Shown here in pieces: positions 5,766 to 57,594 of a stretch of DNA of 64,000 nt. The position numbers were made by a program, and so were the translations under genes. The notes below the pieces were generated by a model that was not told the origin of the DNA, made no database searches, and saw nothing but the letters and a program-made list of their open reading frames with translations. The DNA is taken from the NCBI GenBank assembly GCA_029964075.1, contig CM057142.1, positions 28,336,392 through 28,400,391 on the forward strand, written 5' to 3'. The DNA is from Patiria pectinifera. Its lineage: Eukaryota > Echinodermata > Asteroidea > Valvatida > Asterinidae. The number at the start of each line of letters is the position of its first letter. Position 1 is the stretch's first letter.

Positions 5766-5959
5766 TTCAATTATCTCCAGAACCGGGCGTTTTGAGAAAA
5801 AAACGCATCCCAGTGCCCTACCCAAGTTAAACCCAAGCTTATCCGCTGGCTAGTGTACGATTTATTTCCTCATATAATCCCATATATAACCACACAATGT
5901 AATAGACCGCAGTGTCAATTGTACATCACTGCATCACTGCCGTTGCACGTCACTTGTAT

Positions 5960-6200
5960 ATATCCACCAATCACAGTTTGTCGGTCACAGGTCGGTGACG
6001 ACAAGTCGGTGACCACAAGTGAGTGGTCTGTGACTGACAGGTTGTGCGTGTTAATCACAAATCTCATGTTTTGATGTGTCACCCACCAATAAGAAGCGGC
6101 CATTTCAATGTCGGTGACTAGTTTTTATGGTGACTAGTATATAGTCTCAACGACATTAACATTGCTTTCGTCTCATTAATATGAAGCGAGTCGGTGATGT
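5960..6200 (+). promoter_or_regulatory. CCAAT and repeated GTCGGTGAC motifs upstream of TATA
   Basis: Two CCAAT boxes (CCACCAATCACAG near 5966 and CCACCAATAAGAAGCGGCC near 6083) flank clustered copies of GTCGGTGAC (near 5990, 6004, 6109, plus variants near 5980 and 6188). The same cluster is present upstream of the second TATA copy (50670-50915). Conserved, repeated short motifs 100-330 bases upstream of a TATA box suggest a proximal regulatory region; the binding factor is unknown. Confidence 0.5.
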
Positions 6201-6280
6201 GTGTGATTGACAGCGCACAGGGCCACGCAATCACAATCCAGGTCCGAGTTTTTAGTCACTGCTCAGGAAATCGATGGCAC

Positions 6281-6316
6281 TATTTAAGACATGTGGGGCC
6301 GTCCACCCTTCACATC
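6281..6316 (+). promoter_or_regulatory. TATA-Inr core promoter, copy A
   Basis: TATTTAAG at 6281-6288 is followed 31 bases later by TCACATC (6310-6316), a perfect match to the animal initiator consensus with its A at 6312. The sequence from about 6238 to 6390 is almost identical in the second copy (50958-51111). I infer a transcription start at 6312. Confidence 0.55.
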
Positions 6317-6387
6317 AACCACAGGTCATCAACACCTTCGGACGACAACCAGAGAGAGAACTGACTGCAAGAACAATATTGTGCTCG
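6312..6387 (+). other. Putative 5' UTR exon 1 (copy A)
   Basis: The stretch between the inferred start and a strong donor (GCTCG|GTGAGT, GT at 6388) has no ATG and is nearly unchanged in copy B at 51033-51108, whereas the following intron has drifted. That pattern fits a non-coding first exon. It may belong to the collagen/C1q gene whose coding exon begins at 18881; this link is inferred from order and orientation only. Confidence 0.5.
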
Positions 6388-7861
6388 GTGAGTGTTTGAA
6401 AAAAAAATCATTTTTTTTCTGAAGAATTGTGTTGTCTTTTGCAAAATGTCTTTGAATCAAATTGCGGGATTCAGATTTTGTTGAATGTTGCTGATTCAAT
6501 GATTTTTCAAACAACAAGCGCATTAGTAGGCTTGATAGTTTCCCATCTTTGTGTGATTTTGAAAATGTAGTTGCTTGAGGACTGAAAAATTAACCAAGAT
6601 TTTCATGAGCAAAATGTTCAAATTCAATTGACTCTGATACTGATACACGTTTGCTAACAGCAAAACCAGCGCGCTAGTTCCGATCGAAAAGTTGTGCCTT
6701 TTCCAAACGACCACATTGGAGTGCAAATAAAATAGCTCGATAGTTTACTACATGCGCTAATCAAAGCCCGTCTGAACGAGTTAATTTCAAACACTGTTGT
6801 AAATTATCGAGCTATTATATTTCAGCTCTTAATGTAAGCGGTTAGTGCGGATGCAGACTACGGTTTTGTGAGGTCAAATTTTAAGGCAATAAAAAATGAG
6901 GAATTCATGTCTGGCAATATTTCCGCTACTACTTCCATTGTGCACTCTTAAAAATAAATTGTCCAAATACTGACTGGTTTCTATACTTCTTGAAAAAAAA
7001 ATTATTTGGATTCTTGATGATATTATGGAATTTACAAAATAAAGTCGCATTTATGGATGTTTTTATTTGTGCTCGACTGTAAGGTTGGACTATTGTTTGG
7101 TCCAATCTGACTAAAGTTTTTCCAAGAGTGTAAAATATCAAGTTCCCTGCTGTGAATGAGAACAGTTTAGATTTATTGTTATACCTGCTTATTCAAAATA
7201 TGTAATATTTCAGATGAACTACAAATCGGTGTTTCACCTTTTGGTTTAAAGAAAATATTTAGCGAAAGCCCGACTCTTTATAACCTGGCCAATAACTGTC
7301 TGTATAATTGTTTGCCTTTTTTTCCTATTAACTTTATTATTTAAAGGTTCAAACACGAAATCCGAGTGCGATGTACTCACATTATTTCCGGCAATCACTT
7401 AAACTGATTCAAGATGAAAAGTTATTGGTAACGGAAGAACGTATACAGGGAATACGGACATCTCAAACATGCCGGTCTTATTTGTGTTATTACTAATGTG
7501 GATATACTCAGTGCCTTTAAACTTTGTTGTTAAACTGTGTCATTTCGCTATAGTTCACAGTGCACCATTCCGGTTTCATCAAGGTACTATTAAGCATTGC
7601 AGGATAAAAGTTTCACTGGTCAGAATAGACTAGAGGGCGCAAATACAAGCGCACTGGTTCATGATGATGCACACAATTGTATAAAAGTTCAATAGCTGGA
7701 TGCATTTGTAGAATTCATGGAGATATTTGATATTTGAAAAACGCATTTGAGATAAATAGTCAACCCAAATTGCATTTTCACTGTACAGACACCAGACTCC
7801 ATGTTATCTTGCAGATGATTTTTAATGACTCATATTTTTGTTGGTATTTTTTTTCAACCAG

Positions 7862-7917
7862 GAATCCGCCCAGTGCTGAGGAGTGCTTCCGCGATAGAAT
7901 TCAAGAACTGTGCTTAG
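7862..7917 (+). other. Putative 5' UTR exon 2 (copy A)
   Basis: A 56-base segment is bounded by a pyrimidine-rich acceptor (TTTTTTTTCAACCAG) and a consensus donor (CTTAG|GTGAGT, GT at 7918). It has no ATG. Related 55-57 base cassettes with the same bounding signals occur at 15242, 15766 and 52545, and a decayed one near 13516. The family shares a GAGTG..CTTCCGCGA / GATTCCTTTCGTGACAG core. I read it as a duplicated untranslated exon. Confidence 0.5.
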
Positions 7918-8262
7918 GTGAGTGTCTGTTATGTGACATTTTCTTCATTCCAGCGATAGAATAAAGCAGTGATTTGCTGAGAGACTGTAGCTTTTTTTCT
8001 ATGCATTTAGATGTATACTCGTTTTGGTAAAAATTAAAAACCAGAAAACGTCATTCAACATTGTTTTGCCAATCGTTGCTCAACGTAGCTTTTCGATTGT
8101 TCCCTTTTGGTTCAAAGTGTTTGAAACAACATGTGGATACTTTTCTGAAGATTATTTCTTCAAAAAGTGTAAAACAAGGTGAGCGGTAGTAGGGTGGATA
8201 TTTCCCGTTATTTCTGTGTTTCTGTGTTAACCGCGTCGACGCAGCTTGTGAAATATTATCCT

Positions 8263-8655
8263 GTAAGGTAAGTCTCTTCACTTATCCCTTCTAAAAATAT
8301 CATCCTAGCCATGATGGTAAGTCTCCTCAATTACTCCCTTTAAAATATATCCTCCGAACATTGATGGTTAGTCTCTTCAATTATTCCTTCTAAAATATCA
8401 TCCAAGCCATGATGGTTTTCATTTCAATAGTCCCTTCTTATAAAATATCCTTCTAGCCGTGATGATTAGTCTCCTCAATTATCCCTTTAAAAATATCCTC
8501 CTTGCCATGATGGTAAGTTTCCTCAATTACCCTTTCAAAAAATACCCTCATAGCCATGATAGTTAGACTCCTCAATAATAATCACATCTTGATTAAACAA
8601 ATCCTCATTGTCAGGATGATAAGTCTCCTCAACTGTACCTTCTAAATTGACATCG
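8263..8655. repeat. ~50 bp minisatellite, short allele (about 8 units)
   Basis: Units of ~50 bases containing GATGGTTAGTCTCCTCAATT, a CCCTTCTAAAAATATC block and AGCCAT repeat about eight times. The same minisatellite fills 52936-55425 in the paralogous block. Several units carry GATG|GTAAGT, which resembles a splice donor. Confidence 0.85.
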
Positions 8656-8680
8656 AGGAAATTGCATCAATTTCCGACTA

Positions 8681-10075
8681 GATGTTCGCGTTTGTTGTTA
8701 CAAACGCAGAGTGGTTGGGAAGGATTTTTTTTCAATAAACACTGTAGTGTTAAGTTATGAATAATTGTATGTAAGAGCAAAGGATCACGGAAATACATCC
8801 TTTCCTGTACAATCAATTATTTTGGGGTTCAGCATTCTATGTACATAAATTATTTCTGGCTTGATGACGTCATTTTTCCAAAACGGGAGGTGAATACTGA
8901 TTTAGTTCGAAGTGAATAAATGTTCATTGTGAAGTTAATTGACGTATTTATTCATAACAACTAACTTCCGGTTTGATGACGTCACAGCACATATTTGGAA
9001 GCAAAAAGTGAACATGTAATGGATATCATTACTTTGGCTACGAAGATATAGGACATGGATCGAACGATATGAAGTAAATTTAAAATATGGTCGTTTTCAA
9101 ATTCTCATAGAAGTAACTTCCAGTCTGATGACGTCATGAATTTGAAACCTTGGTAAGTTACTTATGGTTCATCAAAGAAGACCAAGGAGCGATTTGGTAA
9201 AATTTAAAAGGATGTTTTCAAATTAGAAAGAGCAAACACTGTTTTATGTGCCGCTAGGGGTCGCCCTTTCGAAAGATGACGTCATCACAATTTTTTTCGT
9301 CTGGCATTCCTCGCTAAACACAATCATAATGTATATTTGTTTAGTAAAATGCTTCCGCTTTTGAATTACATTTGGTTTTCATAGCACTTCCGGTAATACC
9401 GGAAGTGAAGGTCAAGCGGTTTTGTGTAAGGGGACAAGAAATGTTTCTTACCGCAAAGTCTACAACCTCACGAAAAAAACGATCACGATACTATATTTAG
9501 TTAAAAAGATAAAGCGCAAACTATTTTGTCAGAATTGCCCTAAAATGGCTTGTAATTTGATACCTAATGACGTCATCAAGACGTAACAAAATGTATAACA
9601 TTTTCGTTGCATGGTACAAGTTCACATTAGGTTTCAGGATCATACCGTTAACTGTTTGGAAGAAATTCTGCTTTGTCTTGATTTCAGGCTAAAGTCTTCA
9701 TTTTGAATTGACCTAAATTTGACCTTCCGGTAGACCCGGAAGTAAAGGTCAAACGAGTTCACGTGCACAACAAAATATGTTTATTAATTCATGGTTACAG
9801 AATACATGGGTACAGAATATATCTGATTACAGAATACAAACACTATTGATTATTTTGTTTAAGAGTTATAGATGGAAGTAATTGGTCACTTTTTAAGCTA
9901 AAATCGCTTGTAATTTGACACCGAATGACGTCATCATGACGTCAAAGTAACCTGCACCACTACGGATGAGGGTCGATATATATATTGAAAGTTACAAGTT
10001 CATATCATGGGTCGTTAAGGACAAAAACCGCGGAGAAGTATTGTCCGGAAAAATAAATAAAACAAATTATCAGAA
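8681..10075. repeat. CRE-like repeat unit 1 (~1.4 kb)
   Basis: First of two tandem ~1.4 kb units. It opens with the hairpin GCGTTTGTTGTTACAAACGC and carries repeated TGACGTCA (near 8864, 8978, 9129, 9278, 9569, 9927) and two CTTCCGGT...ACCGGAAGT-type palindromes (near 9386 and 9724). The unit ends with AAGCCGCGGAGAAGTATTG-like sequence. No ORF of note. TGACGTCA is the CREB/ATF site and CCGGAAGT the ETS core; use as such here is unproven. Confidence 0.8.
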
Positions 10076-10080
10076 CTAGA

Positions 10081-11520
10081 GTTTCGCGTTTGTTGAGTTA
10101 CAAACGCAGAGTGGTCGGGCGGACAGCCTTTTCATTATACACTGCCCAGTTCAGTTAGGAATATATGTTTATGTAGAAAAAAGGATCACGAAATTAAATC
10201 CCTTCATGTACAATCAATGTTTCAAAAAGATTTCTTTAACGGTTTGATTAATTTCAGTAAACATTCTATGTGCACAAAAAGTTATTTCTGGTTTGATGAC
10301 GTCATCAGTCAAAAATGGTTATGAATACTGATAAAGTTCGGAGAGGAAAATTTTTCATTGTAAAGTTAAAATAACGAATGAAAATATGGGAAATATAATT
10401 GTTTGTATTAATAACACCTAACTTCCGGTTTGATGACGTATTGATAACACCTAACTTCCGGTTTGATGACGTCACAGCATTAGAGGTCCAAAGGGGAACA
10501 TTGTAATGGATATCATTATTTGGACTTCGAAGATATGACAGGGATCGAATGATAGAATTACATTAAAACTATGATCTTTTTCAAATTCTCCTTAAAGTAA
10601 CTACCGGTCTGATGACGTCATGAATTTGAAACCTTGCCAATTTATCTGTGGTTAATCAGAGAATGTCAAGGGGCGATTTGGTAAAATTTGGACGGATGGT
10701 TTCACAATAAAAGAAGAGAAACTCTATTTTATGTGCCGATATGGGGCGCCTCTCGGAGGATGACGTCATCACACTATTTTTTGTGTCTTGCATTCCTCAC
10801 TAAACACTTTCGTAATATATATGTCTGTAGTAAAATACTTCCGCTTTTGAGTTATATTCAGTTTTTATTGCACTTCCGGTAACACCGGAAGTAAAGGTCA
10901 AGCGATTTTGCGTCCGGGAACACGCAATGTTTCTCACGGCATAATCTACAACCTCACGAAAAAAAACGAACACGATACTCTATTTAGTTCAAAAGATATA
11001 ACACAAACTATTTTGTCAGAATTTGGCCTTAAATCACTTGTAATTTGATACCTGATGACGTCATCATGACGTAACACAATGTATAACATCTTAATAACAT
11101 GGTACAAGTTCACACAAGGTTTTGTGATCATACCGTGAACCGTTCGGAAGAAATGCTGCTTTGTTTTGATTTCAGGCTAAAGTCTTCATTTTGAATTCAC
11201 CTAACTTTGACCTTCCGGTAGACCCGGAAGTAATGGTCAAGCGAGTTCACTTACCCGACAAAAAATGTTAATCAATTCATGGTCTATCCGATTACAGAAT
11301 ACAAACACTAATGATTATTTTGTGCAAGAGTTATATGTGAAAGTAATTGGTCTCTTTTCCAGCTAAAATCGCTTGTAATTTGACACCCGATGACGTCATC
11401 ATGACGTTGGAGTAATATGCACCACTAGGCATGAGGGTCGATATATATTGAATGTTACAAGTTCATATCATGAACCGTTTAGGAGAAAAGCCGCGGAGAA
11501 GTATTGTCCGGAAAGAAAAA
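10081..11520. repeat. CRE-like repeat unit 2 (~1.4 kb)
   Basis: Second tandem copy: the same opening hairpin (near 10085), TGACGTCA near 10294, 10467, 10614, 10761, 11057 and 11390, and the CTTCCGG palindromes near 10874 and 11212. A ~35 bp segment (CACCTAACTTCCGGTTTGAT and neighbours) is itself doubled at 10420-10470. Diverged pieces of the family recur at 33480-33970 and 55560-56140. Confidence 0.8.
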
Positions 11521-12547: not shown

Positions 12548-12551
12548 TTAA

Positions 12552-13010
12552 CCCTAAAGGGGCCGGGGGGGGCGGAATCCGCCGCCCCCTCAACATTTTT
12601 CGTGATTTCGTGAAATTGTTTTCGCGACCCGAGCTGTTATGACTTTTTAGCCTCGAGCTTTGCACATCTTTTGATACCAAAAACATAAAAATCGGACCAC
12701 GGGTTGCCGCGTAGCGAAAAATTTTCCGGCGCTACGCGCCGTGAAAACTGAATTTTCGCATATACGTCGTGTACACAGAGCAGAATTGCCATTCGTACAT
12801 ATGAATAATTAATTAGTCATAATTCCAAAACCCTTTGACCTATAGTCATGAAATTTCTTGGGTATGTTCAGGAAGAGTTGCTCTATGCATGTGCCGAGTT
12901 TCAAAATTTTTCGTCACTCTATGGCCGAGATCTTAGGGGGGGGGCGGAATCCGCCCCCCCCCGGCTGAGAGATGGTCAAAATAACCCGGCCCCTTTAGGG
13001 TTAAAAGTTT
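12552..13010 (+). mobile_element. TTAA-flanked MITE, copy b (complete)
   Basis: A 459-base element lies between TTAA copies (12548-12551 and 13011-13014). Its ends are inverted: CCCTAAAGGGGCCGGG at left and CCCGGCCCCTTTAGGG at right. The interior has a CGTAGCG/CGCTACG hairpin near 12710-12740 and no transposase. Matches 57595-58037 closely. Ends and TTAA duplication fit a piggyBac-like non-autonomous element. Confidence 0.85.
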
Positions 13011-13435: not shown

Positions 13436-13600
13436 CAGCTATGCCTCCCCTTCCAGCCTTCAAGATATCTGTGAGCGGATTTCCAATGACTCATTTTCGT
13501 TTGTATTATTTTCAGCTGGCAATCTGCTCGAATGTTAAGGATTCCTTTCATGATAGAATTCTAGAACGTTACTTCAAGCTTGTTGTCTGCAATTTGACTT
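13436..13600 (+). other. Decayed copy of the exon-cassette module
   Basis: The segment from AATTCAGCTATGCCTCCC through TTATTTTCAGCTGGCAATCT and GATTCCTTTCATGATAGAAT aligns with the exon 2 region of copies A and B and with the cassettes at 15242 and 15766. The acceptor is intact but no consensus donor follows. I take it for a non-functional relic. From 13600 to 14640 nothing else is recognisable. Confidence 0.5.
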
Positions 13601-14975: not shown

Positions 14976-15434
14976 TCAACAATTATCAGATTTGGACGTT
15001 TGATGTCTCATTTTAAAGTGGAAAGGCTTATCTTTCAAACTATATCTATATTGTCTATGTTGGTTACACATTCCACGTCTGGCATTTCGTTATATTTTGC
15101 TGGCTTTTTTTGTATATACACTTTATATATGTTCTCTGTTTCATAATTGAAATGCAGCTGATATGACTCACCCACCAGTCTTCAAAATATCGGCGAGCGG
15201 ATTTTCAATGACTCTTATTTGTTGGTATTATTTTCATCCAGCACTCTGCTTGAGTGTCGACGATTCCTTTCGTGACAGTCTAGAAGCTACGTCACGGTAA
15301 GTATTTGTTATCGAAAATTTCTGCAAGGAATGTAACCATGTCAGACGCTAAACTAGACCATTTCTTTAGTAAATGAAGCACTGTGAAACGACGCACTTTT
15401 CTGTTTATTCCAGCGGGGTTGTAATTCCACTCAG
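14911..15434 (+). repeat. 524 bp tandem duplication, copy 1
   Basis: Offset by exactly 524 bases, this segment and 15435-15958 look identical throughout. The pentamer ACATT sits at all three junctions (14911, 15435, 15959), which points to slippage or microhomology-mediated duplication. Each copy contains one exon cassette. Near-perfect identity means a very recent event, an allelic artefact of assembly, or ongoing conversion. Confidence 0.9.
15242..15296 (+). other. Putative 5' UTR exon cassette, tandem copy 1
   Basis: A 55-base ATG-free segment between an acceptor (TTATTTTCATCCAG) and a consensus donor (TCACG|GTAAGT, GT at 15297). It is homologous to the cassettes at 7862 and 52545. Position and strand suit an untranslated exon of the collagen/C1q gene starting at 18881. 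A second acceptor-like site (CTGTTTATTCCAG) follows at 15413. Confidence 0.45.
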
Positions 15435-15958
15435 ACATTGTAAACATGGCCCCTTGGTCAATTTGACTTCTCTTGAAAAATTATAACTCATTAACTATGT
15501 CAACAATTATCAGATTTGGACGTTTGATGTCTCATTTTAAAGTGGAAAGGCTTATCTTTCAAACTATATCTATATTGTCTATGTTGGTTACACATTCCAC
15601 GTCTGGCATTTCGTTATATTTTGCTGGCTTTTTTTGTATATACACTTTATATATGTTCTCTGTTTCATAATTGAAATGCAGCTGATATGACTCACCCACC
15701 AGTCTTCAAAATATCGGCGAGCGGATTTTCAATGACTCTTATTTGTTGGTATTATTTTCATCCAGCACTCTGCTTGAGTGTCGACGATTCCTTTCGTGAC
15801 AGTCTAGAAGCTACGTCACGGTAAGTATTTGTTATCGAAAATTTCTGCAAGGAATGTAACCATGTCAGACGCTAAACTAGACCATTTCTTTAGTAAATGA
15901 AGCACTGTGAAACGACGCACTTTTCTGTTTATTCCAGCGGGGTTGTAATTCCACTCAG
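15435..15958 (+). repeat. 524 bp tandem duplication, copy 2
   Basis: Second copy of 14911-15434; same content, ending at the third ACATT (15959). See the first copy for the junction argument. Confidence 0.9.
15766..15820 (+). other. Putative 5' UTR exon cassette, tandem copy 2
   Basis: Identical to 15242-15296, created by the 524 bp duplication, with the same acceptor and donor (GT at 15821). If the first is an exon, a transcript could include either or both. Confidence 0.45.
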
Positions 15959-17396: not shown

Positions 17397-17616
<220 letters not shown>

Positions 17617-17679
17617 TATATCAATTAGGTTGGGGTCGCTTTCCCGTAATACAATCACAAAAAGAAAAAGCTATACAGT

Positions 17680-18880: not shown

Positions 18881-19627
18881 ATGAACATCTGCATGGCAAC
18901 TATTCTTTCAATCGCCCTCCTTCTGGGCAACTCTGTCAAGCTCAGAGCATCCGTTACTGGGCCGGATCCCTCGGACGGCAATGGTCCTGCATCTGATCAT
19001 CCGTGTCCAATGTGCTTCCATGGACCGGCTGGAATACATGGAATTCCAGGTCTGCCTGGCTATCCAGGGTGCAGGGGCAATGCAGGGCAAAAAGGTGAGA
19101 TTGGACCTATTGGCCCTATGGGTGAAAAGGGAGCAGTAGGGAACCCTGGGCCTAAAGGCGAGATAGGTCCAACCGTCTCAACTGGTGTCAAAGGTCAAAA
19201 AGGTGAGCCAGGGGAGATACCAGGTGACTCCAACCAGCGGGAAGCATTCACCGTGGTGAGGACGAGCGACTCGGATTCCTATACCGATCACGACACCCGT
19301 TTGCCCTTCCAGGAGACCCAGACGCTTCTGCCGGGTACCAGCTTCGATCTCGAGACCGGCACGTTCACGTGTAGTGTGCCGGGTACCTACGTGTTCGGGT
19401 TTTCTGTGCACAAACCTTCCAGCAGCGGCCTTTGGGTTTATCTCAGAAAGAACGGCGACGTGGTTGTCTCTGGTGCTAGCCACGGTTCAAGTTATTGGGA
19501 ACAGGTATCTGGGAGCGCGGTGCTGGTTCTGCAGCGAGGAGACGCGGTGTACCTAACCATGGGCGGTACGGCGCATAGTACTTCCGGTAACTACACATCA
19601 TTCAGTGGCTTCCTCCTTTACCCCTAA
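18881..19627 (+). CDS. Secreted collagen-like C1q-domain protein
   Basis: A 248-residue protein. Residues 1-24 form a signal peptide (hydrophobic [11 protein letters not shown]). A short linker carries CPMC (42-45), suitable for inter-chain disulfides. Residues 48-115 are Gly-X-Y collagen repeats with Cys64, one interruption at V99 where Gly is expected, and another at 111-115. Residues ~119-248 form a C1q head: the [41 protein letters not shown] and FSGFLLYP blocks are all present. Such proteins trimerise and act as soluble recognition molecules in complement-like immunity or as extracellular-matrix/adhesion proteins. The ATG is the first codon after a strong acceptor (TTCTTTACAG), so upstream exons must be untranslated; the ATG-free cassettes at 6312, 7862, 15242 and 15766 are candidates. 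The coding region is intronless. AATAAA overlaps the stop codon (19626-19631) and recurs at 19725. Ligand unknown. Confidence 0.92.
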
Positions 19628-23893: not shown

Positions 23894-24180
23894 TCAAGGA
23901 AACTTCTCCGTGGTCTCCCCTGCTTCCTCATCCAGCATCCAGGGTTTGGACAGCTCCTTGAACCGTCTCAGGCTCTCCTCCTTGGGCTTCTTGTTTAGAT
24001 CCGGGATGACCTCCACGTCCGAACAGTTGATGCGGAACTTGCTGAGTATGTTGGCCATGTTCATCCTCTCCCTGTAAATTTGCTCCTTCTTGCCCGTGGT
24101 GGCAAAGCCGCGTAGCTTGCATTTCTCCAAGTTGGATTCCATGGAGATGAGGTGAGGGATGAGCAGGGTCAGGCCGGGTC
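23894..24180 (-). pseudogene. SLC12-like cation-chloride cotransporter C-terminal exon (fragment)
   Basis: The minus strand encodes about 95 residues resembling the cytosolic C-terminal domain of Na-(K)-Cl cotransporters: GLTLLIPHL, then an EKCKLRGF segment, then an RMNMANILSKFRI segment, VIPDLNKKPKEE and a short acidic tail ending in EKFP and TGA. SLC12 proteins move chloride with sodium and/or potassium across the plasma membrane. The fragment is more GC-rich than its surroundings, as expected of coding DNA. No exon for the membrane segments was found upstream (higher coordinates) nor for the remaining C-terminus downstream, and no good donor follows the stop. Either the gene has very large introns or this is a displaced exon. 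The residues before GLTLL (an HPRP stretch) do not show the family's usual acidic-glycine pattern. Confidence 0.6.
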
Positions 24181-39065: not shown

Positions 39066-42000
39066 ATGTTTCGCTGGTTATCTGCTGCTGTCTTGGTGCT
39101 GGGAATCGTGGGGTGCCAGATTGCCGACGCCATGAACGAGGTGAGATGGTTTTCTTCTCTCAACTCAAAAACAAAAGATTAAAAAAAAAACGAACGGTGA
39201 CCATGAAGTTTATTTCGCGTAGTGTAAAGACAAATATCTTACGCTACATTACCAGACCATTTTGGTGACCACAACCTTTCGTAAGGCCAGGGGTTTCACG
39301 ATCCGACAACTCGCAAGTCTCATTAACCAAGGAATACTGGCATTGGGGCCGTATCATAAGTCCGACGCCTCATAGGTCCGTGGCGTCGGCCTTATGAGGC
39401 ATAACATTTATTTATTCCGCCTCATAGGTCCGTCGCCTCATACCTCAGACGCCTCATATGTCCGACAACGGCAAAACGAGGCGTTCAATTTGTCGAACTT
39501 ACAAGGCGTCGGAGCTATGAGGCGTCGGAGCTATGAGGCGTCGGACTTATGAGGCGTTGGACCTATGAGGTGTCGGACTTATTGGCCTTTATTTGGAGCT
39601 ATGAGGCGTCGGACGTATGAGGCGTCGTACCTATATGAGGCGTCGGACTTATGAGCGAACCCCCTGGCATTGATTCATTGCAACGGCTAATTATTTTTTT
39701 CCAACAAAGTAACAAATCGCAATTTGAATTGGTTTATCTAAAATAAAAAACATGAAATTCGACCTAGGTGGTTCCTTCTAGATTGTTGTGGCACCCTGTT
39801 ATTACTAAATATGTTTTTCCTAAACGACTTTCCAGACGCAAAAGTTAAAGTCATTTTTTCCAGATATTTTAACAAAACAAAATTTGAACGGAAAACAGTG
39901 CAATCGACTTGGATTTGGCAAGTGGTGATTTACTTTACATTGAACTTGTTTTTTTGATTCCAGCAAGGCATCAAATTCGGCTTTGAGGATCCGTCAGTAC
40001 CTTGATAACCTTGTTTATTCTTGGCGGGTTCAGCTTCCCTTTTTTTTCGTATCTTTTGCCGGGTCTGCCTGAAACACTGTTATGACAAAAAAATGGCCAA
40101 ACAAAAACATGAAATGAAAATATTTAAAGGCAATAAGAATGACGTACCATTCACGCACAATGTGAACTTGACCTGTTTGCAGGTGTACATATTAAGTATC
40201 CTGCCCTTAGTTTGATGGAGTTTTAAAACTATAGCATTTGTAAAGTCGTACCCAGGACTTTTTTTTCTTAGGGCAGCTAGCACTGCTGACAAATAATTTT
40301 ATGATGGACCATTATGGCAATTTTGAGTAGCCAATGTTGAAATATCAGTTGCCTTTAACACAACAAAACTGTTGGAGAGATTCGTTGCATTTCTTAAATC
40401 AAGAATTGCAAATTATATATCTGTTTTTTTTTGTCTCTGATTTTTTAAAATACATTTTCAGGTTGAAATGGAGTTGCTTGAACATATGCTGGAGAGAGCT
40501 GAAGAAAAAGAGGTGGCAGGTATATAAACACATCCATATTGGGTTTTTTTTAATGATGAAACAAAATATATGAAAAAGAAATTCAAAAAAGACGGCCAGC
40601 GTTCTGATTTTTGGAAACGCGTAAGTAGTGCGCACTCTCCACCTGTGTACCAGAGTGGTGAAGCACCACAACTTTATCACAAAGCTTACGGTCTTTTCTT
40701 TTATTCTAGCCGGTGGAAAGGTTTCCTATATCGGTTCAATCTTGTCTGCCCTTCTGTGATTGTGTTTTCATTGCAGGCGGCCAACCTCTCTCCATCGTGG
40801 ACAAGGTGACATGGCAGAGTTCTACTCATGGTAGTTATCTGTACCCATCGTCAAAGGCCGTAGATGGCAGCTCCTCAGCCATCTTGTATCCCGATGCCAA
40901 ATGTTCTCACACTGGTAAGAGTCTTCCTCTTTTGGGTACCAAACCAAATGAAAAAAAAATAAAAAATACAGAAATGGAGTGTCAAATGGCCTAGTAGAAT
41001 GCGACAGTTTTTTATTTCATATTTATTTCAATCTGCAAGTAAATTATCTACAAATATGACATGTTTATAAAAACAGAGTTAAAACATGTGGAGAAGACAG
41101 GAGCGAGGATGTAAATAATTCTACTATCACCAACATTTACTTCAATAGGCCTGAAATAAATCAATCTTACTGAAACAATGGATACCTTTATGGCACTTTC
41201 AGACGGTTATTTCATTTTGATCATATTGGTATATTTCTAGTTGTTTTCGTGACATATCTGAAGTATTAAACAATCGACACAACATTTGTGTGAATTCGTC
41301 TTTCAGCCTACACCATATTTGACTTATTTTACCAATGTTCTATTTATTTTCTTTCTCTCAGTTAGTAATTCGAAAAATCCATGGTGGATGGTCGATCTGG
41401 GGGAGGAACACTGCATCAGCAAAGTCCGAATTCTGAACCGTGGAGACTGCTGCAGTAAGTCATTAAGATTAGGCCTAAGGAAGAGATCATTTCATGCGAT
41501 AATTATGGGAATAATGTACAGCCATATTACTACCCGACCTAAATTCTCAAAGTTTGGACTGTACACATTTGAGCTTTTGCATAACTATCGACACTGATCC
41601 TCTCTTGCAGTGCACCCCGTGGCCTCAAAATTGTGGCAACTTCTACAATATCATCCATATGCGCATTTTGCGTTTGTTGCGTTCGTAACACAAACAAAAC
41701 ACAATTATTATTTTGGAATTTTAATTTGCAGGCGAACGTTTGGCAGGAGCTAATGTCCGCGCTGGTAACAGCCCCACTGCTACCGACAACCCGACCTGTG
41801 GCTCACATGTCACCGCTGCCCAAGCCGGGCCACTCGGTGGTACCATCGAGATGGATTGTTCTACTCCGCTGAGGGCACGCTACATCAGCGTTGATATCCC
41901 CCGTACGGGCACCTTGCAACTGTGTGAGGTCACTGTGGAGGAAGTCCCCCTGGACCAATGCGCAAGTAAGTTTCTTCAATAGACGATGTGGTATTTTCCA

Positions 42001-43655
42001 GAGTTGCTGGACCAGAAGGACCAGCCAACAGGTTTGCATTTTAACTGACCGAGTCACTTCAGTGAGTGAGTGACTGACTGATTCAGAATCCTCATATCTT
42101 AAAACTAGAAGTATGAGTCCAGCTCGACAATTAGCCTAGTCTTGTAAGCATCATTGTATTTTTTTCATCCTGTTAGCAGGTTCTCATAACTATTTACAGT
42201 ATCGCTTGTTTTGGTTTAATATTTCGGCGAATCGATTGAGTCACTAAAAGATGACGTGTCCCTTTGGAAATGTTGCACCTCTTTTGTTCATGAATGAAAC
42301 TAGAATATCATAGCAATTTCGTAATCTGAGGTTTTAAATCCAACCTGAAACTCCTTTTTTCCCTTAAAAAGCGAAGAAGTTCGGTATCGTTGGTAAACCA
42401 GCCACACAAAGCTCTTCCCACGGCTCAGGACTATATCCAGCGGGCAAAGCTGTTGACGGTAGCTCATCGACCATCTTGTACCCCGACAGTCATTGCTCAC
42501 ACACAAGTAAGACAAATCCTCGTTTGAACATCGACCAATCAGAGAGTTGTGCGTTAGGGCTCATAAATATGTATGAGGTGAAATAATAAACAAACATCGT
42601 GAATGAATGAATCCTCATTTGAAACATCGACCAAAAAGGGAGAAGCGAATCACCAGAGCCACACAAAGTAACAATATAAATTTGACTATTGCAGCCATGA
42701 TGATACCGCAAACCTCACATCTTTAGACTTTCCACCATGCAAACCTGCAATACTTATCTTCTGTAATTTCATTTATTCCGAGAACCCCTCTTATATTAAT
42801 AAACGAGCACAACAACAAAAAACAACAACAACAACAACGTATGTTTCTAGCTGGAAAACAACTTCTTGATTTTCTCTTTTGATAAGATAACGAGCAGAAT
42901 CCCTGGTGGAGAGTCGATCTCGGTAGTCAGCAATGCGTTACCAAGGTTACCATCCTGAACCGCGGAGACTGTTGTAGTAAGTATAACAATATATTCACTG
43001 GACACAAAAGTCGGGACACTGAATTTCAGGGAAATAAGACCCTTGTGTTTCCGGGTATGCATACAAACATGCCTCAGCTTTCCCAGCTACTCACACATAC
43101 CTTACAATCACCAATTGTATTCAATCCACACAAATCATTGTTTTATAAGGAACAAAATAAGACTATAATTCTTTGTAATACGATAAGCAATGACTGTCCA
43201 CATTACATGAAGTCAGTACAATTAATTCAAAGTGTATTTTATTCAGGCTAATAAAGCCCAATAGCAAATACAGTTTAATTAATCATTTGAAATAAGTCCG
43301 TTTCTTGAACACGCTGTAAAAAAAAAAGAGATAAACATGACAAAACAAAACAAAAGAGTAAAACAACTTAAAATAGGAATCCTGTCAATTGGTATCAATC
43401 CGAACTGTTGATTTATTTACAGGTGAACGTCTGGAAAACGCAATCGTTCGTGCTGGATCAAGGGAGACCGTTATTGGGAACCAGGCATGCGGGGCACCAA
43501 TCACCGCCGATCAAGCCCAACCACTGGGCGGTACAATCGTGGTTGAGTGCGGTCGACCGTTGAGGGCGCGCTACGTGAGCGTTGATATTCCGGGCACTGC
43601 GACTCTTCAACTCTGTGAGGTCTACGTTGAAGTACTGTCTTCCGGACAGTGCTAA
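39066..43655 (+). CDS. Secreted tandem F-type lectin (fucolectin), nine exons
   Basis: Exons inferred: 39066-39140, 39964-39996, 40462-40519, 40777-40914, 41362-41454, 41732-41965, 42372-42506, 42887-42976, 43423-43655, giving 362 residues in frame. Exon 1 encodes a signal peptide (WLSAAVLVLGIVGC). Exon 3 is a short acidic helix (MELLEHMLERAEEKE) likely to form a coiled coil. Two F-type lectin domains follow (about 57-210 and 214-362), each on three exons joined by phase-1 introns. Both show AVDGSSS, NPWW.VDLG, NRGDCCSER, PLRARY.SVDI and LQLCEV. R128-x-D130-x4-R135 and R281-x-D283-x4-R288 match the RxDx4R part of the fucose-binding signature; a candidate His lies in CSHT 27-28 residues upstream. 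Such lectins bind fucosylated glycans outside the cell, often as opsonins. Exon 2 has a weak donor (TCA|GTACCT); skipping it keeps the frame (351 residues). Acceptors of exons 7 and 8 are AG after short pyrimidine tracts. Confidence 0.88.
39340..39660. repeat. Bidirectional 16 bp minisatellite in intron 1
   Basis: Copies of GCGTCGGACTTATGAG occur first in reverse (CTCATAGGTCCGTCGC type, 39355-39465) and then forward (39510-39655), so the array is an imperfect palindrome of about 300 bases. It lies inside the first intron of the F-type lectin gene. The rest of intron 1 holds no feature. Confidence 0.85.
42811..42838. repeat. (CAA)n microsatellite
   Basis: ACAACAACAAAAAACAACAA followed by more CAA units, within intron 7 of the F-type lectin gene shortly before exon 8. 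Confidence 0.9.
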
Positions 43656-46354: not shown

Positions 46355-46360
46355 TTAGTA

Positions 46361-49472: not shown

Positions 49473-51000
49473 TAACTGTAGCCTTTTTACAGGGTCACCC
49501 TGACTAGCGCCGGTAGTTACCCGAGTGGCGAAACAGCGAGGCGTTTTGAACGGAGACTATAGACCCACGCCGAGAGTGAGCTAAAAGCGAGGTTTTCAAA
49601 ATCCTAGCTTCATTCCAATACCGGCTCCGACTATATTTCCAAACCGCAAGCCCGAAACCGGTATACGGAACGAAGCCGGAGTTTGGGAAAACTTCTATGG
49701 CTCATGACTTCGGTCGTTTTGTAAACATAGGCTTCGTGCCCGGCTTCGGAAAAGGCCATATAGGCAAGTGGCTTTGTCATTTTCTTTTTTTTCCCACTGG
49801 TATGGGGAGGAGAGGGGAAGGCGCATGTGGTCGTTCAACTATCCCACCCATCCCCATCGTCGCTAGTTCAGGCTGAATCGTATGCGTTATGCGGAGGCCA
49901 CAAACTAGCAAATGCAGGAAATCTGGTCGTTTCATACAAGCCTTTTTCGTTGATATGTGGGGATTTATCTATTTTGGAACTGTGTCATTATTTTAAGTAC
50001 TCTCTCAATTCAAAAGAGTGACAATTCACTCCATTCGAATGAAAATTCACTCCTACAGTCGGAAACTAGGGACTAGACTTTTTCGAGTGAAATTTCTTCA
50101 ATCGTTAAGATCCAGTTTTCAGGTCCATTATCACCAGTCATATACATGTACATTCTAACATTTCTGGAAATGATTATTTGAACTGGAATATATATTCAGG
50201 TATCAAAACCTTTTTCCACATTTAGAAGGCCACGTTTATAAACGGGATGGATATGATGCGTGAAGTTCATGGAAGTTCATTTAACTTTATCTTATTTCCT
50301 CAAAGTCCCAATCAAGGAGCAAAGCCTACCATAGGGACATAACTACGGGGACACGGGGCACATATACCCCCACCCCAGAGGAGGCCGGCTCCATCCCCCC
50401 GCCCCGCCCCATTTTGAAAACTTGAATTAAAACATTCACTGTTGTAATACAACGTTTATTTTGTATTAGGTGTGGCCTTTGAAAAAAATAAAAAATAAAA
50501 AAAATAACGCACCCCAGGTTCCCTACCCCAAGTTAAACTCAAGTTTCTCCGCTGGTTTGAGGACGATTTAATTCCTCATACAATCCCGAATACATCCACG
50601 TAATTTAATAGACTGAAGTGCCAACTGTACATTGAATGAATCACGGCCGGTGTATACGTCACTTGTCTATCCACCAATCACAGTTTGTCGGTGACAAGTC
50701 GGTGACCACAAATCGGTGACCACAATCGAGTGGTCTGTGACTGACAGGTAGTGCGTGTCAATCACAAATTTCATGTTTGGATGTGTCACCGACATCCATT
50801 CAATATCCACCAATAAGAAGCGGCCATTTCAATGTCGGTGACTAGTTTTTATGGTGACTTTATAGCCTCAACGGCATTAACATTGCTTTCATATCATTAA
50901 TATGAAGCGAGTCGGTGATGTGTGATTGACAGCGCATAGGGGCCATGCAATCACAAACCAGGTCCGAGTTTGTAGTCACTGCTCAGGAAATCGATGGCAC

Positions 51001-51037
51001 TATTTAAGACATGTGGGGCCTTCTCACCCCTCACATC
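51001..51037 (+). promoter_or_regulatory. TATA-Inr core promoter, copy B
   Basis: TATTTAAG at 51001-51008 and TCACATC at 51031-51037, the same arrangement as copy A. CCAAT and GTCGGTGAC motifs precede it (50670-50915). Confidence 0.5.
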
Positions 51038-51108
51038 AACCACAGGTCATCAACACCTTCGGACGACAACCAGAGAGAGAACTGACTGCAAGAACAAGAT
51101 TTTGCTCG
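51033..51108 (+). other. Putative 5' UTR exon 1 (copy B)
   Basis: ATG-free and almost identical to 6312-6387, ending at the same donor GCTCG|GTGAGT (GT at 51109). The better conservation here than in the adjacent intron argues that the exon was, or is, under constraint. Confidence 0.5.
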
Positions 51109-52544
51109 GTGAGTGTTTGAAACAATCATTTTTCTTCTGAAGAAATTGTTTTTGAATCAAAGCGGGATTCAGATTTTGTTGAATGTTGCTGATTCAATGA
51201 TTCTCCAAACAGCGAGCATAGTGACAGGCTTGATATTTTCCCGTCTTTGTGCGTTTTTGAAATATGGTAGCTTGAGGACTAAAAAAAAAAAACACCCAAG
51301 ATTTTTATGAACAAATTGTTCTATTTCGTTTCACTATGACTCTGATACACGTTTGCTAACAGCAAAACCAGCGCGCTAATTTCCGATCCAGAGGTTGTGC
51401 CTTTTCCCAACGACCACTTTGGAGTTGAAATACATTAGCTCGATAAGTTACATGCATTAATCAAAGCCCGTCTGAGAGATTAATTTCAAATACTTTTGTA
51501 AATTATCGAGCTATTCTATTTCAGCTCTTAATGTAAATAGTTGGTGCGGATGTAGACCACGGTTTTGTTAGGGCAAATTTTAAGGCAACAACAATGAGGA
51601 ATTCCTGTTGGGCATTATTTCCGCTACTACTTCCATTGTGCTCTTTCAAAAATAAATTGTCCAAATACTGACTGGTTTCTATATACTCCTTGAAAAACAA
51701 TCATTTGGATTCTTTTCGATATGGATTATTATCTTTAAAGACATAGTGATGAACTTGTTTTTTATGTTCCACTGTTAAGTTGGACTGTTGTGTAGTCCAA
51801 TCTGACTGAAGATTTTGAAAGAATGTTAACATCAAGTTCCCTGCTGTGATTCAGAACGGTTTAGATTGATTGCTATACCTGCTTTTTCAAAATATTTTAC
51901 GCGCGGGTAATAATTGATTCAGATGAACTACAAAATCAGTGTTTCACGTTTTGGTTTAAAGAAAAAAATGTCGCGAAAGCTTGACTCTTTATAATCTGAT
52001 CAACAATATTTGTATGATAGACGAGCCTCTTATCTTTTGTGTCCTTTTATTCGATTGACTTTATCATGTAAATTTTCGAACATGAAATCCTAGTGCAATG
52101 TACTCACATTATATCCGGATATCACTCAAACTCAATCAGAATGAAAAGTACTGCGGAAGTTGGTCACGGAAGAACGTATACAGGTATCCGTACATCTTTA
52201 AATGCCGGTCTTATTTGTGTTATTATTTATGTGGATATTCTCAGTACCTTTGAACGTTGTTGTTAAACTGTGTCATTTCGCTACAGTTCACAGTGCGCCA
52301 TTCCGGTTTCATCAAGTTACTTTACGCATTGCAGGATAAAAGTGTCACTGGTCAGAATAGACTAGAGAGGGCGCAAATACAAACGCACTGGATCATGATG
52401 ATAAATTACATTTTTACTGTACAAACATTTTTTGGCCGTACTGTACTTGTGGAATTCAGCTATGCCTCCCCACCAGACTCGAAGTAATCTCCTAGAGGAT
52501 TTTTAATGACTCATATTTTTGTTGGTATTTTTTTTTTCAGCCAG

Positions 52545-52601
52545 CAATCCGCGCAAGTGTTGAGGAGTGCTTCCGCGACAGAATTCAAGAACTGTGCTTA
52601 G
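52545..52601 (+). other. Putative 5' UTR exon 2 (copy B)
   Basis: A 57-base cassette after TTTTTTTTTCAGCCAG and before CTTAG|GTGAGT (GT at 52602), homologous to 7862-7917. The whole promoter-exon-exon set is thus preserved in both blocks. Confidence 0.5.
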
Positions 52602-52935
52602 GTGAGTGTCTGTTTTTTGACATTTTCTTCAATCAAGCATCAGAATTGAGCAGTGATTTGGTAGAAGACTATTTTTTTTTATGCATTTAGATGTATACTC
52701 CTTTTGTCAAAATTGAAAAACAAGGAAACGTCATTCAACATTGTTTTGCCAAACGTTGCTCAACGTAACTTTTCGATCTTTACCTTTTGTTCATAGTTTG
52801 TGAATCAACATGTGGTTTAAATTCTGAGGTTTATTGCTAAACAAATGTCAAACAACGTGAGCGGTAGAAGCTGGATATTTCTCCGCTGTTTCTGAGTTAA
52901 TCTCGTCAACGAAGCGCGTGAAATATTTTCCAGTA

Positions 52936-55425
52936 AGATTAGTCTCCTCAATTATCCTTTCTCAAATTATCATCCTGGCCATGATAGTAAGTCTCCTCAA
53001 TTATTCCCTCTAAAAAATATCCTCCTAGCATTGATGGTCAGTCTCCTCAATTACCTCTAGAAAAAATATCATCCTGGCCATGATGGTTAGGCTTCTCAAT
53101 TATCCCTTCTAAAAATATCGTCGTAGCCTTGATGGTTAGTCTTTATCAATGATAACCATCTTTATCAATGATCACATCTAAAACAATATCTTTCAAGCCG
53201 TGATGCTTTGTCTGTTCAATAATCTCTTTTAAAAAAATATCTTTCAAGCCGTGATGGTTTGTATTTAAATAATCCCTTCTAAAAAAAATATCATACTAGC
53301 CGTGATGATCAGTCTCCTCAATTATCCCTTTTAAAAATAATATCCTACTAGCCATGATGGTAAGTCTCTTCAGTTATCCCTTCTCACTAAAAAAAATATC
53401 CTCTTAGCCTTGATGGTTTGTGTGTTCAAAAATCTCTTCTAAAAAAAATGATAGTTAGTCTCTTCAATTATCCCTTCTAAAAAAATATCCTCCTTGCCGT
53501 GATGGTTTGTGTGTTCAATGATCTCTTCTAAAAAAAATATCCTCCTAGCCATGATAGTTTGTCTCCTCAATTATCCCTTCTAAGAAATATCCTCCCAGCC
53601 ATGATGGTAAGTCTCCTCAATAATTACATCTAAAAAACTATATAGCCGTGATGGTTAGTCTCCTCAAGTATCATTTCTAAAGATTATTCTCCTGGCCATG
53701 ATGTTTATTTCAATAAAACATTTCCTTCAAGCCCTGATGATTAGTCTCCTCAATTATCCCTTTAAAAAATATCTTCCAAGCCGTGCTGGGCTTTGTGTGT
53801 TCAATAATCTCTTAAACACAATTCCCTCTTTGCAATGATGGTTAGTCTTCTAAATTATCCATTCTGAAACATATCATGTAAGCCATGATGGTTTCTATTT
53901 TAATAATCCCTCTAAATAAAATATCCTCCTGGCCATGATGGTTAGTCTACTCAATTATCCCTTTTGAAAATATCCTCCTAGACATCATGGTTTTCATTTC
54001 AATAATCCCTTCTAAAAATATCTTCCTAACCGTCGAGGTGATAATTAGTCTCCTCAATTATCCCTTTTAAAAATATAATCCAAGCCATGATGGTTAGTCT
54101 CCTCAATTATCCCTTCTAAAAATATCTTCCAAGCCATGATGGTTTTCATTTCAATAATCCTTTCTAAAATATCATCCAAGCCAGGATGGTTTTCATTTCA
54201 ATAATATCTTCTTAAACATTTCCTCCTGGTCATGATGATTAGTTTCCTCATTTATCCCATTAAAAAATATCCTCCTAGCCATGATGGTTAGTCTCCTCAA
54301 GTATCTCTTCTGAAAAATATCCTCGAAGCCATGATGGTTAGTTTCCTCAAGTATCCCTTCTGAAAACTATCCTCGAAGCCATGATGGTTAGTTTCCTCAA
54401 GTATCCCTTCTGAAAACTATCCTCGAAGCCATGATGGTTAGTCTCCTCAATCATCTCTTCTAAAATATATCATCCAAGCCCTGATGGTTTGTCTATTCAA
54501 TTATCCCTTCTAAAAAAATACCTCTTGCCACTATTAGTGGTCTCCTCAATTATCCCATCTTACAAAATATCTTCCTTGTCATAATTGTTAGTCTTCTCAA
54601 TTATCTCTTCTGAAAAAAATCCTCCTTGACATGATTGTTAGTCTCCTCAATTATCCCTTCTGAAAAAAATATCCTCCTTGTCATGATTGTTAGTCTCCAC
54701 AATTATCCCTTGTTTAAAAATATCCTCCTTGTTATGATTGTTAGTCTCTTCAATTATCCTTTCTGAAAAAAATATCCTCCAAGCCATCATGGTTAGTCTC
54801 CTCAATAATCCCTTCTAAAAAAATATATCCTCCAAGCCATTATGGTTAGTCTCCTAAATTATCCCTTCTAAAAAAATATCCTCTGGGCAATGATGGTTTG
54901 TCTCCACAATTATCTCTTCTAAAAAAATATTCTCCTGGCCATGATGGTTAATCTCCTCAATTATCCCTTCAAAAAATATCATCCCAGCCATGATGGTTAG
55001 TTTCCTCAACTATCCCTTCTAGAAAATATCCTCCTTGCCATGATGGTTAGTCTCCTCAATTAATCCTTCTTAAAAATTATCCTATTAGCCATGATTGTTA
55101 GTCTCATAAATTATCCTTTTCTTAAAAAAAAAATCCTCATAGCCATGATTGTTAGTCTCCTCAATCACCCCTCTAAAAATATCCTCCTTGCCATGATTGT
55201 TAGTCTCCTTAATTATCCTTTCTAAACATTTTCTTCTAGCCATGATGGTTAGTCTTTCAATTATCCTTTCTAAAAAACTTTCTTCTAGCCATGTTGGTTA
55301 GTCGCCTTACTTAATTTTTCTAAAAAAAAATCCTCCTCGCCATGGTCGTTTGATCTCCTTTATAATTCCCTCTAAAAAATATCGTCCTAGCCAAGATTGC
55401 TTTTCCTTTCCATGTGTCCCTCTTA
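52936..55425. repeat. ~50 bp minisatellite, expanded allele (about 48 units)
   Basis: Roughly 2.5 kb of units with AGCCATGATGGTTAGTCTCC, TCAATTATCCCTTCT and A-run TATCCTCC segments. Some stretches show higher-order structure: near 54318-54430 two ~60-base units are nearly identical. Copy A has only about eight units. Not a CRISPR array: there are no unique spacers and the whole unit repeats. Confidence 0.95.
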
Positions 55426-55559
55426 AAAATAAATAAAAAACTAAAAAATAAAAAAAAACTATTTAACTATGGCTAGTACGTCGATATACAAATACAATGA
55501 TCTGCTGTGAACTATGTTACGTCAAGGTCACGACTCCGTGCGATGTCTTCTCAACTAGG

Positions 55560-56140
55560 TGATCTCGTCTCCGACGGCGATTTCACAAAGCTCTGTTGCC
55601 AGATTCGATAGTTACAGTCCACCTGCTGGAAAATCCAATTAATCAAAAACGGGTTATTTTTCAAATAAAAACATCTTGTCATGATGACGTCACAAATATT
55701 ATTTTGTTTTCATATTTTTGGACCAAGGTTCAAGTTCGTACAATGACGTCACCAAAATATCCTTTTTTCGCACTAAGGTTCATGTTCATACCAGTTTTCA
55801 TCGTTTTACACCGAACCGTTTCGAAGGAATTAGGTTTGTTAGTAATTTGCGGGTTTTGTTTTGCATTTTTGCAATTTAAACTTAATTCAACCGGTAACCT
55901 CGGAAGAAAAGGTCAGACCTTCAAATCAAAACTGTTTATCAAGGTATCATCAATCAGATTACAAAATATGAACATGATTTTTCTTTTTGTTCATGAATTT
56001 TGCATCGAAATTGTCAATTGAAATGACGTCATCATGACGTCAGAGTAATATACCTACGCCGGAATCAGGGTAAGTGTTTGTTCAACGTTTCCACTTTATA
56101 CCATGTACCGTTGAGATGAAAAGTCGTACAGAATTATTGC
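55560..56140. repeat. Diverged CRE-like repeat unit in block B
   Basis: GATGACGTCACAAAT (55685), CAATGACGTCACC (55742) and AATGACGTCATCATGACGTC (56022) occur in the order seen in the 10081-11520 unit, ending with a match to its AAGTATTGTCCGGAAA tail. A 141-codon ORF (55596-56021) crosses it without recognisable domain. Confidence 0.6.
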
Positions 56141-57594
56141 CTGGAAAAAAAAAGAAGGAAGAAAAAAAAAGGAAAGAAATGGATACAATAATTCTTGCCA
56201 TTTCAGAACCGTGATCGGGTCGTACACGATCACACAAATAAATCGGGGTTTTGTAGTCCGGAATAAGGAATTCCTGTCTGGCAAAATGTCCGCTACTGCT
56301 TCCATTGTGCACTCTCAAAACTAACTTGTCCAAATAATAACTGTTTTCTTATATTCTTGACAAACTCTAATTCTCGACAAACTCAAACTTAGATTTTTGT
56401 CGCTATGGCTAGCACATACATCCTTGAAAAATTGTATTGTCAAAAACACGGTTGTTCAGGTTCGACTGGTTTTAATCACATTTTGGCTGCATTTCTTTTT
56501 AAGAGTTCAGTTCGCTGCTGTGATTCAGAATACTTAACATTTATCGTAATAAGTACATATTAACGCAAAATAATTCACGCACTAGTAATATTTCTGCATC
56601 CTACCTGGCAACTTAGCTTCCCTTTTTCAGAATCTCCCACCTTATCGCTCCACTGAACCAATCCCCCTGGTGCTGAATCCAAGCCTCCACAACTTATACA
56701 ACTGCACCAGCAAGAGTCCGGCAGTCTTCTGATGACGAACAGAGCACACTTTTCAAAACGTCGAGTTAAAACACCTGGTTCTTGTGAGAACCACACAACT
56801 CATTTTTACTCATATGGTGTTACCGCAAACCTTCCATTCTTTGTTCATGTCCACCATGCAAACCTACATGTCTCATTTCAGAGAAAACGTATGCACAACT
56901 GTTGATTATCGTAACTGGATGCCGTTGCTTACACATGAAAAAGGGTATGCCCGTCGGCACACTATTTTGAAAACACCTTCACGATAAATCAGGCTTAATA
57001 ATTGTACAGGGTATTTAAAATCAGTTCTATCGTCAAGTATAAGCATTGAAAAGTTTCTGTTATATAATAGGTAGATTTGTTTCCGAGCAATTGCAAATAA
57101 TCTTACATAGAATTTTAACTTGTTTTTAGAGAGGTTTCTGAAAAGAAACCCTCTTCTTATCAGTACTTAGTGAAGCCTTCCAAAAGACATGAATGTTGCT
57201 CGTGCGTGAGTCTAGTCAGGACCGTTGATGAACAAAAGTTCAAAAGTTAAACGTAGGCATGCATACCCCTTGCTCTTCAAAACTAGATTTGTTTCTCGAA
57301 ATGTCGATGTGTATATGTGTTTTGTTTTAAGGTAAAAAAAACAACAACTTTAATCCAATTTGGGCGCCTGCAAAAGGAATTTTCATTTTGCGCACAATTG
57401 AACCCGCCCTGCGAGAGCCGAATTATTGTCTGACAGCAAAATGATTAGACTGTTTTTGTGAAGAATTCATCCAGTGACTAAACTTTGGTTAATTTTGTTC
57501 CGATCCATTACTCATTTAAAAGTGAATAACCTTTATATTTCTAGGAAAATTGTGGAAATGAAACTCGGAAATTGTACGGGAACTGCATCTTTAA

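Follow-up and report, generated by a model that had tools for sequence, protein, structure and literature searches.

A conserved promoter and leader-exon block predicted to precede tandem C1q-collagen paralogues in Patiria pectinifera

Results

The stretch of DNA analysed here (the window) comprises 64,000 nucleotides of Patiria pectinifera contig CM057142.1 (assembly GCA_029964075.1, forward strand positions 28,336,392 to 28,400,391) and contains two similar blocks, copy A and copy B. Self-BLAST of the window aligned A 5797-7668 with B 50501-52402 (1,949 columns, 82.1% identity) and A 7790-8472 with B 52471-53142 (81.5% identity), and both matches were in the same order and on the same strand, confirming the original prediction of two homologous collinear promoter and exon blocks. 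The upstream region of copy A (5797-6311, plus strand) contains CCAAT boxes at 5967 and 6086 together with a GTCGGTGAC cluster at 5991-6118, and its core promoter (6141-6311, plus strand) contains a TATTTAA at 6281-6287. The upstream region of copy B (50501-51032, plus strand) has CCAAT boxes at 50674 and 50810, a GTCGGTGAC cluster and a TATTTAA promoter. The GTCGGTGAC motif occurred 7 times in the window as compared to 0.2 expected, every time inside block A or B, and GGCACTATTTAAGACATG was present in both blocks at 6276 (A) and 50996 (B). Each promoter is followed on the plus strand by two non-coding exons, exon 1 at 6312-6387 in copy A and 51033-51108 in copy B, and exon 2 at 7862-7917 in copy A and 52545-52601 in copy B. 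The donors after both exons match consensus in both copies (that of exon 1 of copy A lies at 6388), and the start site of copy A exon 1 was placed by its distance from the TATA box. A TATA-like box and a conserved leader exon with a donor were found upstream of a same-strand coding exon, the arrangement sought for a predicted Pol II promoter.

A minisatellite comes after exon 2 in both blocks, with about 6 copies of a ~49-bp unit in copy A (8267-8576, plus strand) and about 49 copies, estimated by length, of a ~50-bp unit in copy B (52939-55397, plus strand). The shared order of elements had been predicted to run to the ends of the blocks; it held through the minisatellite, but the 3' part was weaker and contained only short matches between A and B. 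CRE-like GATGACGTCAT matched 16 times in the window as compared to 0 expected, with 15 matches in copy A (8863-11400) and one in copy B (56023), and self-BLAST identified a 1.4-kb tandem duplication in copy A that is rich in this motif (8677-11520, plus strand). Copy A also contains an exon-2-like unit lacking a donor, apparently a decayed exon 3 (13516-13578, plus strand), and a counterpart of this unit was sought in copy B and not found. A further exon-2-like unit with a GTAAGT donor (15242-15296, plus strand) is the probable exon 3 of gene A and recurs at 15766-15820 within a 99.8% tandem duplication. Exon 3 was not detectable in copy B.

Conservation between the two copies was assessed by ungapped identity. 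Intron 1 was 83.6% identical and the start of intron 2 82.3%, as compared to 94.1% for the core promoter (Fisher vs intron 1 p=1.5e-4), 97.4% for exon 1 (p=3e-4) and 94.6% for exon 2 (p=0.024). The distal upstream region did not differ from intron 1 (83.6%, p=1.0). Exon and intron have therefore not diverged equally, and the expectation that the core promoter and exon 1 were kept while the introns drifted held for A vs B. Conservation of exon 1 and the promoter above the introns was also seen across 17 rows from 15 places, and at the exon-1 donor identity fell from 0.965 in one 25-bp bin to 0.837 in the next. In a third copy, copy C, exon 1 and intron were equally conserved (86.8% vs 85.9% identity to A).

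As predicted, copy A points to a collagen/C1q gene, C1q proteins being complement-like recognition molecules that are secreted. Its coding exon (18881-19627, plus strand) has an acceptor directly before the ATG and encodes 248 aa with a putative signal peptide, collagen and a C1q domain. The C1q domain (PF00386) scored 85.4 bits against a cut-off of 23.7, and the collagen repeat ahead of the head (PF01391) scored 36.1 bits against a cut-off of 27.2. The N-terminus, a candidate signal peptide, is hydrophobic by eye and forms a helix at low confidence in the AlphaFold model. This model (mean pLDDT 56.8) was usable for the C1q strands only, and strand limits rather than coordinates were taken from it. 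The head has clear sequence matches to solved C1q heads (PDB 5hkj and others). An SLC12-exon fragment (23255-24571, minus strand, frame 23897-24535) recurs in other units of the C1q family.

The search for a C1q paralogue to the right of 64000 was positive. At window-equivalent position 65495, 1.5 kb past the window end and 14.5 kb from exon 1 of copy B, a same-strand collagen/C1q frame begins that is open for 273 aa and precedes the following promoter copy (about 80704). The last intron of the predicted gene B contains an insertion (58241-64000 in the window, minus strand, continuing to about equivalent 64493) that carries a reverse transcriptase frame (61492-62253, minus strand). The collagen/C1q frame at 65495 supports the suggestion that copy B would drive a gene beyond the window. 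We predict from sequence that both blocks are 5' ends, promoter and non-coding exons, of neighbouring C1q-collagen paralogues and not orphans.

The original count of two copies was too low, as exon 1 is present in dozens of copies genome-wide and the pair belongs to a family with 62 or more near-identical ones. A 59-mer from exon 1 had 62 genome copies at up to 3 mismatches, 42 of them on contig C1, while the reversed control had 0. Exact copies numbered 17, near-identical exon 1 sequences were found on different contigs, and two C1 copies matched exon 1 of copy B at all 76 bases. All 8 promoters with downstream sequence examined led to a same-strand open C1q frame at 7.7-14.6 kb. Conversely, in C1 below 6 Mb a same-strand exon 1 was located 10-14 kb upstream of 10 of the 23 scored C1q domains (about 5% expected by chance) and exon 1 at up to 3 mismatches was absent within 15 kb of the other 13, and at C1:9.5-11.6 Mb no exon 1 was near any of 65 scored C1q domains. 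Because these 13 and 65 domains have no nearby exon 1, the shared promoter serves a subset of the C1q genes.

Selection was estimated from pairwise dN/dS. Among 18 C1-cluster genes the C1q domain gave 2.05 as compared to 0.52 for the signal and 0.39 for the collagen, from counts that are pairwise rather than tree-based, non-independent and made without recombination screening. These 18 genes thus combine a head dN/dS above 1 with a conserved remainder, as expected of a diversified repertoire. Adding three C14 genes and L044 (22 genes) gave a C1q dN/dS of 1.48 with a bootstrap range of 0.93-1.59, which spans 1. In a second, independent cluster the whole-domain C1q dN/dS was 0.42, and its variable sites coincided in 8 of 13. 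Within the 18 genes, 17 head codons had four or more residues, all within four turns that would form the tip of the C1q head. All 18 heads differed at these codons, which are rich in Tyr, Ser, His, Asp, Thr, Asn, Trp and Arg, and variation at 7 of the 17 is confined to the first two bases. The high dN at the 17 codons is partly by construction because they were chosen for varying.

Discussion

These data suggest that A and B are very probably the front ends of tandem C1q-collagen paralogues that combine a constant promoter with a variable-head recognition repertoire. By sequence, each gene has a conserved TATA-type promoter region, non-coding exons 1 and 2, usually an exon-2-like third, and a single coding exon whose acceptor abuts the ATG or lies slightly upstream of it. 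In gene B a retrotransposon-bearing insertion lies in the last intron, and the coding exon beyond it is intact. The common promoter and leader may put the members that carry them under the same control, and tandem duplication with diversifying selection on the four apical turns may equip the constant stalk of each member with a binding surface of its own. The outcome would be a germline-encoded repertoire of secreted lectins for recognition, probably with an immune role.

It was also proposed that copy B is an orphan promoter, which could have been severed from any coding exon by the retrotransposon-bearing insertion. No coding exon lies between B and the window end and B lacks a detectable exon 3, as this reading would have it, but the same-strand 273-aa C1q frame ahead of the next promoter and the identity of its exon 1 to the two C1 copies make it very unlikely. 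A further reading takes the block for a mobile element, or for an RNA gene of the spliced-leader type, which has spread and lies near C1q genes by accident. The many near-identical copies fit such an origin, as does a leader exon that is short and closes with a donor; however, the copies accompany a C1q coding exon and usually also an SLC12 fragment of the same unit, and an Rfam search of the window returned no family over threshold, so that we regard it as extremely improbable.

The likeness of promoter and exon 1 could instead stem from gene conversion among the copies rather than functional constraint, since recent exchange homogenises tracts and near-identical exon 1 sequences, 17 exact 59-mers among them, occur across contigs. 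The high identity nevertheless stops at the exon-1 donor, and exon 2 forms a second identity peak 1.5 kb further on, across a diverged intron. Identity bounded by splice sites speaks against conversion because conversion tracts should not respect splice sites, and we consider this explanation unlikely. A bolder extension of the tandem-paralogue reading is an antibody-like invertebrate germline repertoire, in which a conserved promoter and leader precede dozens of C1q genes with near-identical frameworks and 17 apical-turn codons that differ in every copy examined, possibly with focused diversification by gene-conversion loop shuffling or by targeted mutation, to which the 7 codons that vary in their first two bases would point, and with selective expression from shared promoters. 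We consider this extension quite unlikely.

With A and B read as front ends of tandem C1q-collagen paralogues, the puzzling promoter pair would be the part in view of a large family of recognition genes, one that keeps its regulation constant as its binding surface diversifies. Two questions then become directly testable: how such an animal assembles and regulates a large germline set of secreted recognition proteins, and whether expression of the copies is joint or one at a time. Our search of the open literature, which covered mainly lancelet, bivalve and general immunity, found no paper on this C1q family or its shared promoter, and the available portions of PMC11312191 and PMC5752451 give no lancelet C1q gene count.

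The collagen-bearing C1q form described here, with the conserved promoter that its members share, represents a variant of known C1q expansions. According to the available part of the oyster account, expansions with positive selection are already known there, and as in Patiria a large family arose by tandem duplication, introns are less conserved than exons, and a few head sites are positively selected while most are under negative selection. The oyster differs in having 4-11 selected sites per cluster and no collagen-bearing (type I) members, whereas in Patiria it is the collagen-bearing form that has expanded. That part of the account includes no promoter comparison, whereas here the promoter and non-coding leader are common to clusters on different contigs. 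The vertebrate complement C1q A, B and C chains (PDB 5hkj and others) likewise have a collagen stalk and then a C1q head, but here the heads vary among dozens of predicted genes, each with one coding exon. The sea urchin SpTransformer (Sp185/333) genes are likewise a multigene, highly variable invertebrate immune family, although they encode a different protein family from C1q.

Promoter blocks A and B each lead to a collagen/C1q gene

Self-comparison of the window aligned A (5797-7668) with B (50501-52402) at 82.1% identity and 7790-8472 with 52471-53142 at 81.5%, both with order and strand alike, bearing out the original prediction of two collinear homologous blocks. The predicted motif cluster was also real, with GTCGGTGAC occurring 7 times in the window against 0.2 expected and all 7 inside the two blocks. 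Identity between A and B, measured over ungapped columns of a global alignment, was 83.6% upstream of the core promoter, 94.1% in the core promoter at 6141-6311 (10 differences/169), 97.4% in exon 1 (2/76), 83.6% in intron 1 (220/1,339), 94.6% in exon 2 (3/56) and 82.3% over the first part of intron 2. Core promoter and exon 1 had been described as almost unchanged with drifted introns, and this held when compared to intron 1 by Fisher tests (core p=1.5e-4, exon 1 p=3e-4, exon 2 p=0.024). An intron 1 element of ~100 bp, possibly an enhancer, was kept between A (6895-6997) and B (51593-51698) and occurred a second time in a later intron of B (56262-56365). A dispersed ~450-bp repeat with TTAACCCTAAAG-like ends was present at 12548-13004, 57591-58041, 60955-61304 and 1269-1621 (copies 73-90% alike); it resembles a short, non-autonomous DNA element, and one copy sits within an insertion bearing reverse transcriptase.

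The suggestion that B drives a gene beyond the window was supported by searching for a C1q paralogue right of 64000. The next 30 kb contained a 273-aa open frame for collagen and C1q on the same strand as B, starting at 65495 in window numbering run on to the right and 68% identical to the C1q protein of gene A (18881-19627, +). The coding exon of B is not visible before the window end because the DNA between 58241 and roughly 64493, which contains a reverse transcriptase frame, is not collinear with a gene unit on contig C1. Promoter copy C followed near 80704, and a C1q exon of its own lay another 7.7 kb on. Gene layout was consistent: exon 1, exon 2, usually an exon-2-like third exon, then a single coding exon with its acceptor at or immediately before the ATG. 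The probable third exon of gene A (15242-15296) has a second copy at 15766-15820, produced by a tandem duplication (99.8% identical), and the exon-2-like unit at 13516-13578, where block A had been predicted to end, has lost its donor. All eight promoters examined downstream (A, B, C, three in C1:4390001-4490000 and two in C1:2080001-2180000) led to an open C1q frame 7.7-14.6 kb away. Taken alone, two promoter copies 45 kb apart amount to an ordinary tandem duplication of a gene; what makes the pair interesting is the C1q gene family behind it.

Other features were present in the window. An SLC12 transporter exon fragment (23255-24571, -; PF03522, E 1.7e-26) recurs downstream of further C1q units. 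The window copy is free of an in-frame stop that is common to most of the others, so the fragment appears to be a pseudo-exon carried along as a passenger when the array was amplified. Two F5/8 type C (galactose-binding) domain frames between the two C1q genes (41262-41594 and 42886-43248, +) are probably exons of a single lectin-like gene. Segments 30389-30924 and 37256-37792 are duplicates (93% identical), and the frame 37167-37679 (-) had a weak His_Phos_2 match below cut-off.

Probable constraint on the promoter and exon 1

We aligned 17 rows representing 15 distinct places, two C1 copies appearing both as a search locus and as a retrieved sequence. Averaged over pairs, identity was at least 0.96 in each of the 25-bp bins between 6216 and 6390, where exon 1 ends, and 0.84 in the next bin. 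Gene conversion between copies could also account for similar promoters, but identity drops sharply at the exon-1 donor and exon 2 forms a separate conservation peak; this pattern favours constraint as the probable cause. Constraint on exon 1 would not extend to every copy, as exon 1 of copy C was no better kept (86.8% versus A) than its intron (85.9%).

Distribution of the promoter and C1q families

The whole assembly was searched (613.5 Mb, 1,020 contigs). A 201-base promoter and exon-1 query returned 236 candidates, and all 40 scored were 97-100% identical. The exon-1 59-mer with up to 3 mismatches occurred 62 times (37 forward, 25 reverse; reversed control 0), 17 of them exact. C1 carried 42 of these, all below 5.74 Mb; C14, the contig of the window (C14:28336392-28400391), had 4, contig C415 had 6 and the other 10 were spread over small contigs. 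The total of 62 does not give the number of genes, because part of the C415 matches are probably allelic to matches on C14. C415 seems to represent the other haplotype: C415:345989 matches C14:28342707 at 95.7% over 3.2 kb, and the distance to the following copy (58 kb) is the same on both. An exon-1 match was absent from C415 at the expected site of B's allele, and the allelic promoter is followed 8.4 kb on by a C1q gene distinct from gene A, suggesting that the haplotypes may differ in gene content.

Searching with PF00386 gave 292 candidates, and the 150 scored were all above cut-off and without stops. Among the 23 scored domains on C1 below 6 Mb, 10 were preceded at 10-14 kb by an exon 1 on the same strand (chance expectation about 5%, binomial p about 1e-7) and 13 had none within 15 kb. 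A dense cluster at C1:9.5-11.6 Mb held 65/150 scored domains, with no 59-mer match (up to 3 mismatches) nearby.

A constant front and a variable C1q head

We compared 22 coding exons, the 8 linked to promoters and 14 out of another 21 scored domains from the first 6 Mb of C1; 7 were left out, 2 of these with short frames. For the 18 genes of the C1 cluster (locus L044 excluded as an outlier) dN/dS reached 2.05 in the C1q domain (codon bootstrap 1.56-3.62, 12/18 genes), against 0.39 in the collagen and 0.52 in the signal/N-terminal part. Adding the three C14 genes and L044 lowered the C1q value to 1.48 (bootstrap 0.93-1.59, 12/22 genes). Of 131 C1q codons 76 were invariant among the 18 genes and 17 had four or more residues (130, 137-139, 177, 179, 183, 185, 199, 201, 206, 228, 232, 234 and 236-238), and all 18 heads were distinct at these 17 sites. 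There dN was 0.61 and dS 0.15 versus 0.036 and 0.035 at the remaining codons, though as the 17 were selected for varying the whole-domain dN/dS is the fairer test. With strand limits taken from a predicted model, all 17 sites mapped to the A-A', C-D, E-F and G-H turns, leaving D-E and F-G free of them; the turn zones were drawn after the sites were seen, so a small p-value for this clustering overstates it. These alternate turns of a jelly roll share the end that faces away from the collagen stalk.

A second set of 14 genes (C1:10.3-10.54 Mb) was older than the first (dS 0.22) and had a whole-domain dN/dS of 0.42, thus positive selection was not shown overall. Its variable sites coincided with those of the first set at 8/13 (p about 1e-5), an overlap free of site-choice bias, and 11/13 lay inside the same four turns.

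Proposed working and relation to known C1q families

Sequence comparison establishes the homologous promoters and leaders, the gene structure, the array and the pattern of variation. Transcription would start at 6312 and 51033, and family members may be under common regulation. The proteins would be secreted and form trimers, with the variable tip of the C1q head predicted to bind ligand.

The nearest published case we found is the Eastern oyster, for which 476 C1q genes are described, with tandem duplication, 4-11 positively selected sites in each cluster and an absence of collagen-bearing members (PMC6835236). On that description the two share C1q expansion by tandem duplication, but while the oyster family lacks collagen-bearing members, here the collagen form itself has expanded, with a common promoter.
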